From NCBI RefSeq assembly GCF_902497555.1, contig NZ_CABVGP010000001.1:3638501-3702500 (forward strand): 64,000 bases of DNA. The letters run 5' to 3'. The notes under the pieces are model-generated. The model searched no databases. It saw only the letters and a program-made list of their open reading frames with translations, and was not told the DNA's origin. The stretch comes from Amycolatopsis camponoti. GTDB lineage: Bacteria; Actinomycetota; Actinomycetes; Mycobacteriales; Pseudonocardiaceae. Below, piece by piece: positions 25,917-32,562 of the stretch (position 1 is the first letter of the stretch; each line of letters starts with the position of its first letter). The position numbers and the translations under genes were made by a program.

Positions 25917-27563
25917 GTGCCCCGTCCGCCCGAGACCGTGCCCGGCGAGGTGCTGCGCGCCTCGATCGTGGACCGGCTGTTCGCCCGCGCGGACGATGTT
26001 CGGCCGCTGTTCACCCACCAGGACCACACCCACGACGCCGAGCACACGCTGACGTGGGCGGAGTTCGCCGCCCGCGTCCGCGTGGTCGCGGGCGGGCTGC
26101 GCCAGGTCGCGGAGCCGGGGGAGCGGGTCGCCGTCCTCGCCGGGCAGGAGCTCGCCTACCCGCTCGCGTTCTTCGGTGCGCTGGCGGCGGGCATGATCGC
26201 CGTTCCGCTGATGCCGCCGGGGAACCGAGCGCAGGCCGAGCGGCTCGGCGGAGTCCTGGCTGACTCCGGCGCACGCGTGTGGCTGACGTCGTCGGCCGCG
26301 GCGGCGCGGGTCCGCGAGTTCGGGGCACCCGGCGACCTGCTGGTGGCCGACGAGCTGACCGGGCCGGGCGCCGACCCGGTGCCGGTCGAGCCGGAAAGCC
26401 CGGCGTACCTGCAGTACACGTCGGGCTCGACGCGGGAGCCGGCCGGCGCGGTGATCCCGCACCGGGCCATCGTCGCCGCGTGCTGGCAGGGCAGCCGGGC
26501 CTACGCCGTCGACGAGGGCACGACCTGCGCGGGCTGGATCCCGTTCTTCCACGACATGGGCCTGATCCAGCTGCTGTGCCTGCCGGTCTTCGCCGGCGGG
26601 CGGGCGGTGTTCATGGCCCCGGCCGAGTTCGTGCACCGGCCCCGGCGGTGGCTGCGGCAGATGGCCGACTACCCCGCGGTGTTCACCGCCGCGCCGAACT
26701 TCGCCTACGACCTCGCGGCCGACGCCGGCCCCGGTGACGACGACCTGGACCTCTCGGACGTCCGGGTCGCGCTCAACGGTGCCGAGCCCGTCCGCCCGCG
26801 CACGGTGGAGCGCTTTCTCGAGGTCTTCGGCCCGCACGGCTTCCGGCGCGGGGCGTACCGGCCGTCCTACGGGCTCGCCGAAGCCACCGTCTACGTCGCG
26901 AGCGCGGGCGAAGAAGGTCCGCGCGGCGCGAGGTTCGACCGGGAAGCCCTTGCTCAGGGCCGAGTGGTCGAAATCGTCGACGGACAGGAGCTCCTGTCGG
27001 TCGGCCGTCCGGTCGGGCAGCAGGTGCGGATCGTCCACGAGGGACACGAGCAGCCCGAAGGTTCGGTCGGCGAGATCTGGATCCACGGCGCGAACGTCGC
27101 GACCGGCTACTGGGGCCGGGGCGACGCGGCCGCGTTCGACGCCACGCTCGACGGCGTCGGCGGCTGGCTGCGCACCGGCGACCTCGGCGTGGTGCACCGC
27201 GGCGACCTCTACGTCACCGGCCGGCTCAAGGACCTCATCGTCGTCGACGGCCGCAACTTCCACCCGCAGGACATCGAGGCGGCGGCGGGCGAGGCCCACC
27301 CGGCGGTCCGCCGCGACCGCGTCGCCGCGTTCGGCGTCGCCGACGAGGACGGTGAGGGCGCGGTGGTGGTGGCGGAATGGGCGCGCGACGCTGACGCGGA
27401 CCTCAAAGAGGTGACCCGCGCGGTGCTGCGCGCGGTGTCCCGCGAGCACGATCTCACGCTCCGTGCGGTACATCTGGTCCCTTCCGGCGGACTTCCGCGC
27501 ACATCGAGTGGCAAGGTCGCCCGGTCGGCGGCCAAGGCACGTTATGGTGACGTCCGTGGGTGA
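25917..27563 (+). CDS. Fatty acyl-AMP ligase (FAAL)
   Basis: 548 aa, GTG start. Adenylate-forming motifs are in order: YTSGSTREPAGAVIPH (about 167-182), WIPFFHDMGLIQLL (207-220), SYGLAEATVYV, WLRTGDLG and GRLKDLIVVDGRNFHPQDIE, with SGKVARSAAK at the end. The FHDMGLI and GLAEATV signatures mark the FAAL group, which makes acyl-adenylates and loads them on an acyl carrier protein rather than on CoA. The partner carrier gene overlaps its 3' end by 20 bp. No polyketide synthase or NRPS follows; instead come type VII secretion-type genes, which is unusual. Confidence 0.9.
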   Translation: MPRPPETVPGEVLRASIVDRLFARADDVRPLFTHQDHTHDAEHTLTWAEFAARVRVVAGGLRQVAEPGERVAVLAGQELAYPLAFFGALAAGMIAVPLMPPGNRAQAERLGGVLADSGARVWLTSSAAAARVREFGAPGDLLVADELTGPGADPVPVEPESPAYLQYTSGSTREPAGAVIPHRAIVAACWQGSRAYAVDEGTTCAGWIPFFHDMGLIQLLCLPVFAGGRAVFMAPAEFVHRPRRWLRQMADYPAVFTAAPNFAYDLAADAGPGDDDLDLSDVRVALNGAEPVRPRTVERFLEVFGPHGFRRGAYRPSYGLAEATVYVASAGEEGPRGARFDREALAQGRVVEIVDGQELLSVGRPVGQQVRIVHEGHEQPEGSVGEIWIHGANVATGYWGRGDAAAFDATLDGVGGWLRTGDLGVVHRGDLYVTGRLKDLIVVDGRNFHPQDIEAAAGEAHPAVRRDRVAAFGVADEDGEGAVVVAEWARDADADLKEVTRAVLRAVSREHDLTLRAVHLVPSGGLPRTSSGKVARSAAKARYGDVRG

Positions 27564-27813
27564 TCACCGCGCCGAGGTCACGAAGGTCGTCTCCGACACC
27601 TTCCGGCTCGACCCGGCCCGCGTCGAGCCCGACGCTCCGCTGGAGGAGCTCGGCATCGACTCGAAGGGCCGGATCAAGCTCCTGGCGGCGCTGGAGGTCT
27701 ATTACGGGGTGACGATCGACCTGGACGAGCTCGAGCGCTTCACCGACGTGGGCTCGGTGGCCGAGGTGCTCGCGGAAGCTCTGGGAACTGCAGGATCTGA
27801 GGAGAGGCGCTGA
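27544..27813 (+). CDS. Acyl carrier protein
   Basis: 89 aa. The phosphopantetheine site is in EELGIDSKGRIKLLAALE, with Ser40 in the DS motif, and the protein has the length and helix pattern of a free-standing carrier. I chose the ATG at 27544, which overlaps the ligase gene; a GTG three bases later would also serve. It is expected to receive the acyl chain from the adjacent FAAL. Only one base separates its stop from the next gene, so the secreted-protein genes are in the same transcript. Confidence 0.88.
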   Translation: MVTSVGDHRAEVTKVVSDTFRLDPARVEPDAPLEELGIDSKGRIKLLAALEVYYGVTIDLDELERFTDVGSVAEVLAEALGTAGSEERR

Positions 27814-27814
27814 A

Positions 27815-28132
27815 ATGAGCGGCGGGGGGTACACCGCGACGACGGAAGCGTTGTCGACGGCGTCCAAGACCATCGGGGACCTGGCGGAGCACCTGCTGGA
27901 CGACAACCCGGACCTGGAGACCCCGGCGGTCACCGCGGAGGGCTTCGGCAAGGCGCACAACGCCCACGCCGCGAAGTACACCGCCGGCGCGCAGGCGCTC
28001 TGGGCTGCGGTCTCCGGCTACAGCACCACGCTGAGCTCGTTCGGCACCAACCTCGGCACCGCCGGGTCGAGCTACAGCGCCAACGAGGACAACCAGTCGG
28101 GCGCCATCACCGACGCCGGGGGCTCGCTCTGA
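27815..28132 (+). CDS. Small type VII secretion target (WXG100/EspC-like)
   Basis: 105 aa with GGAG before the ATG. It is a Gly/Ala/Ser-rich helical protein, with two predicted helices and a C-terminal YSANE (residues 87-91), matching the YxxxD/E export signal of type VII substrates. A Trp at residue 63 lies between the helices but the WXG triplet is not exact. It likely pairs with the large downstream WXG protein, since such substrates are usually encoded as adjacent partners. No secretion ATPase or other ESX core gene is in this window. Confidence 0.7.
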   Translation: MSGGGYTATTEALSTASKTIGDLAEHLLDDNPDLETPAVTAEGFGKAHNAHAAKYTAGAQALWAAVSGYSTTLSSFGTNLGTAGSSYSANEDNQSGAITDAGGSL

Positions 28133-31100
28133 TGGCCGAAAAGAAGAAGTGGTCCGACGTCAAGGCGATCCTCGACGACCCGAGCGTCCCCGCCGGGCAG
28201 AAGAGCGCGCTGATCAGCAGCTGGCTGCGGGAGAACCCGCCACCGCCGCCGTTCCTGGCCGACCAGGAACCGGACGACATCAAGCAGAAGCGGCAGGAAG
28301 CCGAGAAGTACGCCGGCGCCTACAACGCCAACCCGCTCTTCGCCGGGCAGTCGGTGGACGAGGCCTACGACAAGGCCAAGTCGAGCGGTGACCAGAACTC
28401 GTACAACGAGGATCAGGAAAAGAAGGCCGTCGACGACGGCAAGACGAAGCTCAACGACACGAAGCCGCCCGCCGCCGGCGAGAACGGCGGCGAATCCACC
28501 GGCACGAAGACGTCGGACGAAATCTTCGACGCCGCCGCGCCCGCGCTGAAGCTGTTCGAGACCTTCGGGTCGCTGCTGGCGAAGATCCCCGACGACTGCC
28601 GCGGCAACACCCGCGCGCTCGACCTCGACAAGGACATCCGCGCGCCGTTCGACGAGCAGCGCGGGATCAGCTTCAAGAACTTCGTCGACGACGCCGCGCA
28701 CTTCAAGACCGGCTCCGAGACGGTCGACCGGACGCTGGAGGACACCGGGTCCCAGCTCGGCAGCCTGTACAAGACGTGGAGCGGCGCCGGTGCCGACGCG
28801 GCGTCCGACACCTACAACGACAAGATCCAGCCGAAAGCGGCGAAGCTGTCCCAGACGCTCGGCGACTGCGGCGAAGCGACGCTGACCACCGCGACCACGG
28901 TGTTCCAGCTGTGCAAGGGCAAGGCCGACGCCGTCATCGGCATGTACACCGACCTGGTCGGCAAGGCCGACTACACGATGGCGCAGAAGGTCATCGCGGT
29001 CGCCAGCGGCGAGCACGGCAACGAGCAGGACCTGGCCCAGATCGCGGGCTGGATGGACCTCAACTTCGGCACCAACCTGGTCAAGACGCTCAACGACCAG
29101 GGCTGCTGCGACGGCGACGAGATCAAGAAGCACGGCCAGGACCTGGCCAAGCAGTGGATCCAGAACCAGTTCAACCCCGACATGTGGGATCGGCTCTACA
29201 AGGGCTTCGAGAAGACCTGCAAGGACACCAAGGACCTCGTCGACCAGGCGTACGACGCGCTCGACAAGGTCATGGGCAAGGTCAAGAACGAGTTCGAGGG
29301 CGTGTCCATGCCGGGCGGGTCCGGCTCGGGTGCTCCCGGCGGCGGTGCCACTGGTGGCGCGGGCGGCGGTCCGGGTGGCTCGGGCAACGGCTCGGGTTCC
29401 GGGTCCGGCTCGGGTGGTTCGGGTTCCGGTTCGGGCGGTTCGGGTTCGGGCGGCTCGGGGGCCGGTGGAGGCGGCGGCCAGGTGCCGCCGATTCCCGAAG
29501 GCAGCTCCGGCTCCGGTGGCAGCGGCCTCGGCGGCGGTTCGGGTGCCGGGGGCTCGGGTACCGACCTGCCCAGCGGCGCGGGCGGCGGCAGTGGTTCGGG
29601 CAGCGGTTCCGGGGCCGGCGGCGGCGGTTCGGTGCCGCCGATCCCCGACGTCTCCGGCGGCGGGTCCGGCTCGGGGAGCGGTTCGGGTTCCGGCGCCGGC
29701 TCGGGTGCCGGGGGTGGGGGCTCGGTGCCGCCGATCCCGGATCTGGACACGTCCTCCGGCGGCGGAGGTTCCGGCCTCGGCTCGGGCGGTGGCTCGGGTT
29801 CCGGCTCGGGTTCCGGTTCCGGTTCCGGTTCCGACGACACAGCGCCGTCGTCGGCGCAGTCGCAGGCCGACGCCGCCAAGGAGCAGGCGGCCGCGGCCGC
29901 CGAAGCGGCCAAGCAGAAGGCCGCGGACGCGCTGAAGGAGTTCAGCGGCGAAGGCATCAAGACCGACTCCGGCGAAGGCGCCGGCGGTCTCGGAGGCAGC
30001 GGTTCCGGCAGTGGCGAAGGCCTCGGCGGTGAAGGTCTCGGCAGCGGGTCCGGCACGGGCGGCGGTTCGGGGTCGGGCTCCGGTTCGGGTGGCGGGTCCG
30101 GCTCGGGTTCGGGTGGTTCCGGCGCCGACGACGGCAAGGCCGCGGCCGAGCAGGCCGCCGAAGAGGCGAAGCAGAAGGCGGCCGACGCGCTGAAGGAGTT
30201 CAGCGGCGAAGGGATCAAGACGGATTCCGGCGAGGGGGCCGGACTCGGCGACCTGCCGGGCGCCGACAAGGACGGCGACGGCAAGCCGGACAGCCCGCTG
30301 GGTGTCGACAAGGACGGGGACGGCAAGCCGGACAACCCGCTGGGCGTCGACAAGGACGGTGACGGCAAGCCGGACAACCCGCTGGGCGTCGACAAGGACG
30401 GCGACGGGAAGCCCGACGGCCTGCTCGGCGACGACAAGGACGGCGACGGGAAGCCCGACAAGGACGGCGACGACACCCCCGACACCCTGAAGGTCAAGCA
30501 GGGCGACAAGACCTTCGAGATGACCGAACCCGACCACGACGGGAAGATGGACATCAAGGTCGGCGAAGGGTCCGACGCCGCCAAGGACTTCAAGCTCGAC
30601 TGGTCCAAGGACGCCGACGGTCCACAAGGGACCGGCGACGACACGTACTGCCCCGGCCCCGACGGCAAGATCCACATCGAGGACGGCGACCTCAAGATCA
30701 CCGCCGAGCGGCCCGACGGCCCGGACGGCCCGACCGTCGTCACCGTCGACGACGGCAGCGGCACCCCGACCACCTACACCCTCGGCGAGGACGACAAGGC
30801 CTCCGGCGCCCTCGGCGACACCCCGGAAAAGAAGCTCGACGACCTGCCCACCCACCGCGGCACCCTCGAGGACCTGCCGGCGCACGACAGCGGCAGCGGC
30901 GGCGGGGACGGCCACGGAGGCGGCGGCCACGGCGGCGGTGCGCCGGCCGGCATCGGCGGCGGCTCCCACGGGGGCGCCGGCCTTTCGGCGGCCGGCCTCG
31001 GCTCGGTCGGCGAGGGAGCAACCGGCGGGCTCGGCGACACGCCGACGTCCGGCGGCGTCCACAGCGGCGTCGGCGCCACCCAGTCCCAGCCCGCGGCCGC

Positions 31101-31335
31101 GTTCGCCCCGGCCGGCGCGCCGACCGGGCCCGGCGGCCAGTCGGGGATGTCCGGGATGGGCGGCATGGGCGCGATGGGTGGTGCCCACGGCGGCGGCGGG
31201 GGAGGGGACACCGAGCGCCGGTCGTCCGCCTACCGGATCGACGGCGCGGTCTTCGACAACCTCGGTGAGCCCGGGCGCCGGATCATCGGCTCCCTCAACG
31301 ACGACGAAGACCCGCCGTCCGCCCGGACCTGGTAG
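28132..31335 (+). CDS. Large WXG-containing Gly/Ser-rich putative type VII-secreted protein
   Basis: 1,067 aa; its ATG shares a base with the preceding TGA. Residues 1-390 are helical, with a WXG motif (WSGAGADAA at 216-224) and YDALD (374-378), the YxxxD export signal, in the next helices; several Cys occur at 245-363. Residues 395-620 are mainly Gly-Ser repeats interrupted by VPPIP at 451, 501 and 532. Two copies of an alanine-rich helix ending [19 protein letters not shown] flank a second Gly-Ser block. Residues 712-781 hold five DKDGDGKPD units, then a folded domain and a Gly-rich tail with [14 protein letters not shown] infer a long, flexible surface protein that binds Ca2+. No enzyme domain is recognised. 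Confidence 0.75.
30265..30474 (+). repeat. Five 42-bp tandem units encoding DKDGDGKPD calcium-binding-type repeats
   Basis: Units begin at 30265, 30307, 30349, 30391 and 30433, each coding for 14 residues of the form DKDGDGKPD followed by a PLGV-like linker. The DxDGDGxxD spacing matches thrombospondin-type-3 and dockerin-like calcium loops. The nucleotide copies differ at synonymous positions, so the protein pattern seems to be under selection. Confidence 0.85.
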
Positions 31336-31343
31336 GAGGACGC

Positions 31344-31736
31344 ATGAGCGAGATCGACGCGATGAAGGCCGAGCTGGACGGTCTCGTCCGCGAACAGTCC
31401 GAGCGGCGGGCCCTGCGCGAGCAGCGGGGCGAGGAGATCAAGGCCCAGTCCCACGAGTACATGACCAAGCAGGTCCAGGCGGCCGAACGGTACGTGCAGC
31501 ACGTCCGCGAGATGGCGCAGCGCAAGACGAAGTCCGGCTGGAGCACGGACCGGGGCACGACGGAACCGCCGTCGGCGTTCGCCACGGACGCCTTCGGTGA
31601 CGAGCCGGGCTCGGCGTCGCCGTTCGCGTCGACGCCGGAGTCGCGGCCGTTCGCCCGTGACGAAGGCTCCCGGCGCGCCCGCCGTCCGCGCGCGGCGGAG
31701 GCCGACGACGACGGGTACGACAACAACCCCTGGTGA
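31344..31736 (+). CDS. Small charged coiled-coil protein of the FAAL/type VII locus
   Basis: 130 aa, AGGAGG before the ATG, nine bases after the large secreted-protein gene. Residues 1-65 are a highly charged heptad-like helix (MKAELDGLVREQSERRALREQRGEEI), residues 66-130 are disordered and rich in Ser, Pro, Arg and Asp. I do not recognise a family. YbaB-like proteins of similar size often end type VII-associated operons in actinomycetes, and this may be a distant case. A cytoplasmic chaperone or adaptor role is a guess from position. Confidence 0.6.
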   Translation: MSEIDAMKAELDGLVREQSERRALREQRGEEIKAQSHEYMTKQVQAAERYVQHVREMAQRKTKSGWSTDRGTTEPPSAFATDAFGDEPGSASPFASTPESRPFARDEGSRRARRPRAAEADDDGYDNNPW

Positions 31737-31755: not shown

Positions 31756-32562
31756 TCAGTGCCAGAGGTCGACGGCGATCTCGCGCAGCCGCTCGGTGAA
31801 CGTCCCGGCCGGGTTCGCCCGGTGCAGCACCGCGCGGAGCTCGGTCTCGAACTCCGCGCGGCGGTCGCCGAACAGGTGCGGAGCCGCGCTGGACAGCGAG
31901 AAGACACTCGCGACGACGTCGTCGGCCGTGCGCGTGACGACCCGGCCCGGGACTTCGAACCGCCGCGGCCCGCGGAACCCGGCGGCGCGGTAGATCTCCG
32001 GCTCGCCGGCGGCCGTGCCCCCGGGCAGGGAACCCTGGCCGGCGCGCCGCACCGGCCCGAGGAACGCCTGGACCAGCTCGGTGATTTCCGCACGCGGCAC
32101 GGACCCTTCGGTGCCTTCGTGCGTCGTCGCGTGCACGTGGGCGCAGACGCCGCCGGGCTCGAGCATTCCGCGCACCGCGGTGGCGACCCGTGCCCGGTCG
32201 AGCCAGTGGAACGACTGCGCGAACGTGACCAGCCGGAACCGGCCGAGCCCGGCGGGCAGTTCTTCCGCGCGCCGGTGCACCCAGCGGCAGTTCCCGATCC
32301 CGGCGAGGGCGGCGAGCCGGGCCGCTTCGCCGAGCATGTCCGCGTCGGCGTCCAGCCCGACCGCCTCCTCGAACGAGCCGGCCAGCAGCAGCGTCAGCGA
32401 GCCGGGGCCGCAGCCGACGTCGAGCAGGCGCCCCGACCCGTCCGGCGCCAGCTCGGCGGCGAAGGCCGTGGCGAGCTCCAGGGGATAGGCGGCGCGGCCC
32501 CGCGCGTAGTACCCGGCACTGCCCGAATAAAGGGACGGATCCCACTTCCACGCGTCGGTCAC
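31756..32562 (-). CDS. Class I SAM-dependent methyltransferase
   Basis: 268 aa. Motif I is LLDVGCGPGSLTLLLAG (about 46-62), followed by VGLDADADML (motif II acid) and LVTFAQSFHWLDRARV (motif IV). It resembles small-molecule methyltransferases of the UbiE/Tam type; no substrate can be inferred. The GTG start has TACGCT six bases upstream on its strand, fitting a leaderless transcript. It is divergent from the glucosidase gene and convergent with the type VII locus, only 19 bp from it. Confidence 0.85.
   Translation of the reverse strand: MTDAWKWDPSLYSGSAGYYARGRAAYPLELATAFAAELAPDGSGRLLDVGCGPGSLTLLLAGSFEEAVGLDADADMLGEAARLAALAGIGNCRWVHRRAEELPAGLGRFRLVTFAQSFHWLDRARVATAVRGMLEPGGVCAHVHATTHEGTEGSVPRAEITELVQAFLGPVRRAGQGSLPGGTAAGEPEIYRAAGFRGPRRFEVPGRVVTRTADDVVASVFSLSSAAPHLFGDRRAEFETELRAVLHRANPAGTFTERLREIAVDLWH

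Follow-up and report, generated by a model that had tools for sequence, protein, structure and literature searches.

A stretch of 64,000 nucleotides from Amycolatopsis camponoti (assembly GCF_902497555.1, contig NZ_CABVGP010000001.1, positions 3,638,501 to 3,702,500; referred to below as the window) raises the question why a fatty acyl-AMP ligase (FAAL) and a free-standing acyl carrier protein (ACP) should be encoded in one tight row with proteins of the type VII secretion system (T7SS) kind. The answer proposed here, to which we give about an even chance, is that the five-gene unit provides two paired type VII secretion substrates with a dedicated supply of acyl-ACP. The locus deserves attention because FAAL chemistry and type VII secretion meet in it in one heritable unit, and because a second, unrelated acyl-ACP module was found in the same place in other loci.

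All five genes lie on the + strand, where the preliminary description of the window had put them. The FAAL gene (25917..27563, 548 aa) is followed by the ACP gene (27544..27813, 89 aa if ATG 27544 is the start), by the gene for a small PE/EsxB-like T7SS-type partner termed here ESC (27815..28132, 105 aa), by that for a large protein termed BIG (28132..31335, 1067 aa) and by that for a small charged protein termed SML (31344..31736, 130 aa). One base pair separates the ACP stop from the ESC ATG and 8 bp lie between BIG and SML, as had been described, but the supposed zero gap between ESC and BIG is a one-base overlap (TGATG). The 20-bp overlap of FAAL and ACP holds with ATG 27544 and shrinks to 8 bp with the alternative GTG 27556, both starts being candidates.

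The stand-alone FAAL contains an AMP-binding domain (PF00501, 209 bits) and its top NCBIfam model is the fatty-acid--AMP ligase PRK05850 (467.8 bits), with the curated subfamily cutoff reached by none. Models named for acyl-CoA ligases appear at the ninth (PRK07768, 319.7 bits) and next at the eleventh place (155.3 bits), so that in the NCBIfam ranking the protein is closer to FAAL than to acyl-CoA ligase models. The closest solved chains were 5d6j_A (named an acyl-CoA synthase, E 5.8e-107) and the FadD32 entries 5ey9 and 5hm3, and residues 41-545 align with a FAAL32-type chain. The adenylation motifs YTSG, YGLAE and TGD and the C-terminal lysine motif RT(S/T)SGK are intact in the FAALs of all 66 cassettes collected as described below. 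The ACP scores above the cutoff of PF00550 (48.6 bits), and the attachment serine is present in 66/66 ACPs of the FAAL type and in 23/23 of an alternative, ketosynthase-type class. Taken from the family and the intact motifs, FAAL would adenylate a free fatty acid and load it onto the neighbouring holo-ACP. In the ACPs of the FAAL cassettes basic residues follow directly after the attachment serine (DSK-x-R type), and those of the ketosynthase type read DSMkLIEL at this place (window 27640-27690 and relatives).

The next two genes encode the putative secretion substrates. The helical N terminus of BIG includes a WXG100/PPE-like domain (approximately aa 166-394) that is narrowly above the WXG100 cutoff (PF06013, 27.9 bits vs 27.3), and distant BIG proteins score under it; the WxG motif itself is kept in 143/143 BIG proteins. 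ESC carries the YxxxE motif YSANE, and YxxxD/E is kept in 138/140 ESC proteins, both exceptions coming from loci without acyl genes. These two of the previously cited motifs are therefore conserved, but the third, YDALD of BIG, was rejected as an export signal on account of its poor conservation: 43/65 proteins with FAAL, 1/22 with ketosynthase and 4/56 acyl-free. At the level of sequence, the conserved signal-like motif is located in the small partner ESC and not in BIG. The EspC-like label given to ESC was also dropped, since three ESC proteins score 13.3, 16.1 and 16.9 bits with PF10824 against a cutoff of 23.5. Neither protein could be assigned in Pfam to the PE and PPE families proper (ESC 12.7 bits vs the PE cutoff of 22; BIG without a PPE match). 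When the ESC profile was compared with solved structures, a cytochrome c555 trimer (2.2e-11) and a designed coiled coil (2.6e-6) preceded an EsxEF subunit (2.5e-5), and because of this rank the profile search alone proves little.

The modelled folds of ESC and BIG appear to be compatible with PE-PPE and Esx heterodimers, the match to the PPE fold being tentative. The likeness to the mycobacterial pairs extends to the order, with a small YxxxD/E partner just upstream of a WxG helical partner, and to the long Gly-rich C terminus; the differences are that ESC and BIG are not PE/PPE by sequence, are joined to acyl genes and occupy an ESX-4-type site. Behind its N domain BIG consists of a Gly/Ser-rich linker, acidic repeats, a small conserved domain (residues 782-889, 30475..30798 on the + strand) that contains YTLGE and has 39 invariant columns in 20 aligned rows, and a conserved C-terminal tail. 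SML, for which no significant family was found in Pfam and NCBIfam profile scans, has an N terminus that looks coiled-coil-like by eye and an acidic C-terminal tail ending in NNPW; E17, E56, R111, D123 and N127 are invariant in 15 aligned rows. SML is probably a cytoplasmic helper.

A scan for FAAL with one genome per species yielded 77 loci. In 53 of them, all from Amycolatopsis, the FAAL gene is followed by ACP, ESC and BIG; the remaining 24 lack BIG and comprise 14 that form a polyketide synthase (PKS)-associated branch of the cassette FAAL clade and 10 distant ones. A ketosynthase-family match is present at 10 of these 14 loci, with a very large downstream ORF at several. Together with twelve additional loci and the window, 66 cassettes with the order FAAL-ACP-ESC-BIG were obtained; SML comes next in 62 of them and the other four stop at a contig edge. 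The five-gene order, which the preliminary description proposed to look for in other actinomycetes, is thus not unique to this genome. Its remark that no PKS stands alongside was also borne out, as no ketosynthase (KS) match occurs in the 66 cassettes; within the 64-kb window, the thresholds applied gave no match to KS or chain-length factor (CLF) and none to the FAAL profile besides the FAAL itself, condensation domains of non-ribosomal peptide synthetases (NRPS) not being sought as such. In total 181 loci were counted, a non-random sample made up of the 77 FAAL-scan loci, the window and loci picked among the listed BIG matches. L078-L109 and L196-L202 (mostly duplicate places or cut-short loci), L193-L195 (upstream stretches) and L223-L236 (added later) were excluded from the counts. 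The BIG N-domain was matched in 218/297 genomes of Pseudonocardiaceae (E 1e-3), in many weakly, and the loci read are a part of these.

The link with type VII secretion comes from the location of the cassettes, of which 26/66 lie between glmM and glmS and 40/66 elsewhere. Upstream of one glmM-glmS cassette (L193 joined to L033) EccE, EccB, EccD and EccC were recognised above the NCBIfam cutoff, and after the Ecc genes the site continues with an Hsp70-like protein, two WXG100 proteins, rplM, rpsI, glmM and the cassette. Past the cassette an alpha/beta hydrolase gene (PETase/chlorophyllase-like), glmS and an NAD(P)H-hydrate epimerase/dehydratase gene follow. The glm synteny suggests an ESX-4-type site for the 26 cassettes, the Ecc genes having been read at one of these, and the tie to type VII secretion made in the preliminary description is upheld to this extent. 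This interval presumably corresponds to the place of the mycobacterial ESX-4 region (Rv3450c to Rv3439c). ESC-BIG is wider in distribution than the FAAL cassette, being found in Pseudonocardiaceae in the glmM-glmS interval beside ESX-4-type secretion genes. The window copy belongs to the other kind, and no match to EccC, rplM, glmM or glmS was found in the window. Two of the 40 cassettes elsewhere (L045 and L174) lie on short contigs that resemble the glmM-glmS type via a P450 or the hydrolase.

The surroundings of the cassettes were grouped by the protein content of their 5-kb flanks (63 copies upstream, 61 downstream). Protein content was preferred to nucleotide similarity, which over 2-kb flanks gave 15 groups upstream and 14 downstream but broke up the 26 glmM-glmS copies into three groups. 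Upstream, all 26 glmM-glmS copies formed one group and 37 other copies nine groups; downstream, the glmM-glmS copies again formed one group and 36 other copies ten. The unit is whole across all these neighbourhoods. Measured between the ACP stop and the point where the ESC profile match begins, the spacing is 104-335 bp for the glmM-glmS copies, whereas 36/40 copies elsewhere have 3-27 bp and the four remaining non-glm copies 96, 99, 149 and 159 bp. In the simplest reading of these distances, FAAL-ACP would first have settled beside an independent ESC-BIG-SML unit and would have been fused with it into a tight operon upon relocation.

Joint relocation bears directly on the explanation that the neighbourhood has no function, the acyl genes having landed beside the secretion pair and been kept there by shared transcription or drift. 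We consider this quite improbable, since the five genes have remained side by side in the nine upstream groups outside the ESX-4-type one, with the operon tightened, and since other Pseudonocardiaceae have an unrelated acyl module at this very place. What speaks for it is that 68/157 BIG loci are acyl-free in a sample enriched for FAAL, and that independent acquisitions may be few.

The unrelated module was found in 22 loci of Pseudonocardiaceae, in which the glmM-glmS interval holds genes for an ACP, a FabF-like KS and a CLF-like protein instead of FAAL-ACP. The Cys-His-His patterns of KS are present in 22/22, and none of the 21 CLF stretches read, of which four are partial, has the Cys pattern; in one KS locus the contig ends before CLF. 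The module lies downstream of SML in the same direction in 18/22 loci and is inverted between SML and ESC in the other four (L134-L136 and L176), and one further locus (L132) has the ACP alone. None of the counted loci has both FAAL-ACP and KS. Judged from these genes, two unrelated routes predicted to make acyl-ACP are settled beside the same ESC-BIG pair, and ACP is the element common to both modules. The ACP, the KS with its Cys-His-His patterns and the CLF-like protein without the Cys pattern (22 loci) resemble the minimal sets of type II polyketide synthesis, presumably those called 'highly reducing'. CLF relatives of 46-51% identity occur in 14 further loci (L223-L236), mostly with several KS and ACP genes, which suggests that the ACP-KS-CLF trio was probably recruited from polyketide-type clusters. 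The module, by contrast, occupies the ESC-BIG slot and lacks the additional KS and ACP genes that most of these relatives have around them.

The presence of two ACP-charging routes in one slot could mean that ACP, rather than one product, is what counts. The acyl-ACP might then be a sensor, the acylation state of which reports the fatty-acid supply and gates the translation, folding or export of ESC-BIG via SML, so that the chain stays in the cell; the basic residues after the serine in the FAAL-group ACPs would fit such a role. However, profile scans found no regulator domain in the unit and a KS-CLF pair seems costly for a sensor, and we regard this explanation as very improbable.

In the reading preferred here the loaded ACP is likely used together with the ESC-BIG pair. 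In a second step, proposed on the basis of the sequences and the fold models, the WXG100/PPE-like domain of BIG would pair with ESC as an Esx or PE-PPE-type heterodimer, the YxxxD/E signal being provided by ESC, and the two would leave through the ESX-4-type system that stands near the glmM-glmS copies of relatives. The third step is the weakest: the acyl chain would pass from ACP onto the exported pair or onto a co-exported small molecule, by means of an enzyme encoded elsewhere or of an unrecognised activity of BIG or SML. It is most likely that the acyl chain ends on, or leaves with, the predicted secreted pair. The shared gene order, the joint move, the ESX linkage, the intact motifs and the alternative ACP-KS-CLF module were counted in favour of this reading. 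In its full form it describes a lipid-linked T7SS in which an ESX-4-type, PE-PPE-like pair would be exported acylated or lipid-loaded with a chain supplied by a dedicated ACP, which would be charged through FAAL in Amycolatopsis and through KS/CLF in other Pseudonocardiaceae; this extended version is put forward tentatively, as a possibility with somewhat less than even chances. Should the exported pair indeed carry the chain or take it along, the ancestral ESX-4-type system outside mycobacteria would gain a testable cargo and chemistry, and soil bacteria would offer a model for the links between lipids and PE/PPE proteins in mycobacteria.

Several observations weigh against this reading. BIG without acyl genes makes up the 68/157 loci mentioned above, distributed as 59/108 at glmM-glmS and 9/49 elsewhere. 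Separate occurrence of the two halves, which the preliminary description named as evidence against its proposal, is thus seen in part: the five-gene unit is conserved and moves together, but ESC-BIG(-SML) also occurs alone, which shows that the pair must in general be able to do without acyl genes. Even in the BIG clade of the window there are four FAAL-less copies (L112, with no recognised ESC, and L190-L192), whose genomes (G002, G229, G260 and G030) also carry a FAAL cassette (L078, L085, L086 and L082). The 14 loci with CLF relatives contain neither ESC nor BIG. No acyltransferase was recognised in the unit in Pfam and NCBIfam scans, and a search of ESC and the BIG N-domain for a Ser, Thr, Cys or Lys that is kept where acyl modules are present and lost where they are absent found none. 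Independent origins, finally, may be few. In the FAAL tree the 66 cassette FAALs and the 14 PKS-associated ones form one supported clade with two changes in all, in which the latter may or may not be nested, so that one or two origins may suffice. On the BIG tree the FAAL label has to change 7 times and the KS label 5 times, numbers that are partly inflated by the single label given to loci with two BIG copies; all were quick FastTree trees with long-branch warnings. Since the origins may be few, the argument draws its weight from the fact that the unit is retained and relocates jointly and from the second module, and not from species counts.

One difference was seen in the conserved C-terminal tail of BIG, which reads Gly-Ser-Leu in 60/66 proteins of the FAAL class (the other six being four cut proteins and two with GSL by eye). 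At the same position the KS class (n=22) has Ser in 8, Thr in 5 and Ala in 2, with 7 unmatched, and the acyl-free class (n=56) Ser in 6, Val in 19 and Leu in 1, with 30 unmatched. The difference in Ser is a lead at most and may simply follow the BIG tree.

The failure to recognise an acyltransferase in the unit also favours another explanation, according to which the acyl-ACP would be used for a separate lipid, of the envelope or for signalling, by an enzyme encoded elsewhere in the genome, and ESC-BIG would help to export or anchor this lipid without being acylated itself, much as lipids and PE/PPE proteins are connected in mycobacteria. A P450-like gene divergent to FAAL, which would fit acyl-ACP tailoring, is present in 22 loci (20/26 at glmM-glmS, L045 and L174; barely above the Pfam p450 cutoff in the one scanned), and the cassette FAALs share their clade with the 14 PKS-associated FAALs. 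On the other side, no P450 match was found in the relocated cassettes, which keep just the five genes; the cassette has no PKS, and the product of ACP-KS-CLF would be another one although the proteins beside it are alike. This explanation is considered fairly unlikely.

To our knowledge no acyl chemistry has been assigned to type VII secretion itself. The enzyme family, the intact motifs and the adjoining carrier protein are shared with the FAAL-ACP pairs of PKS/NRPS pathways (FadD32-Pks13, lipopeptide starter modules), from which the unit differs in that it has no ketosynthase and its partners are T7SS-type proteins. According to one FAAL study, typical bacterial FAALs are always accompanied by PKS or PKS/NRPS genes (PMC8460268), and a survey of ESX systems (PMC4791881) treats pe and ppe as genes that were added to the set of ESX-4 components. 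With the ESX-4 locus the site has in common EccB, EccC, EccD and EccE, the Hsp70-like and two WXG100 proteins, rplM-rpsI-glmM and the position of the cassette before glmS; the ESC-BIG pair and the acyl modules are not mentioned in the portions of the ESX-4 locus descriptions that were consulted. Similarly, within the excerpts at hand, a FAAL review does not mention secretion or ESX (PMC11837247), a paper on T7SS variants mentions neither acyl nor lipid (PMC11217815), and one on Amycolatopsis genomes reports eccB, eccC, eccD and mycP with no mention of fatty acyl-AMP (PMC11004387). FAAL/ACP and T7SS terms co-occur in passages of PMC12604023 as separate mentions. Judged by titles and the starts of abstracts, no publication joining FAAL or ACP with a T7SS locus was found in the open-licence PMC literature.

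The PKS-associated FAALs of the cassette clade (L046, L050, L052, L055-L061, L063, L064, L066 and L070) are mostly followed by a very large PKS-like ORF. By eye, an ORF resembling MmpL was noticed near them, joined in L046 by one for an antigen-85-like esterase. These 14 loci look like the FadD32-Pks13-type locus; their genera are not known to have mycolic acids.

ESC-BIG relatives with weak profile scores lie between glmM and the hydrolase in eight loci of the order (L203-L206, L208, L209, L214 and L216), and in four proteins examined from these BIG is just ~440-512 aa long. In mycobacteria-like genomes (L203-L210) the short pair after glmM, which we take to be Rv3440c/Rv3439c, comprises possible uncharacterised ESX-4 substrates. 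A FAAL-like gene near ESC-BIG in L207 (8096-9919) and L210 was taken as coincidence, being on the opposite strand and ~1 kb off, with small toxin-antitoxin-like ORFs (by eye) between it and BIG. In nine loci a second, diverged and acyl-free ESC-BIG-SML set stands directly upstream of the P450-FAAL cassette (L049:5773-9048; matching places in L040-L054).

The isochorismatase-family gene (PF00857; 25305..25907, + strand) that ends 9 bp upstream of FAAL was rejected as a sixth gene of the unit, being beside only 3/66 cassettes (window, L002 and L038). A convergent methyltransferase gene (31759..32562, - strand) outside the unit is found beside 14/66. Within the BIG gene a 119-base segment (window 29866-30242) is repeated once at 83% identity, and DKDGDGKPD repeats with 42-base spacing (window 30251-30460) resemble by eye the calcium-binding repeats of exported proteins.

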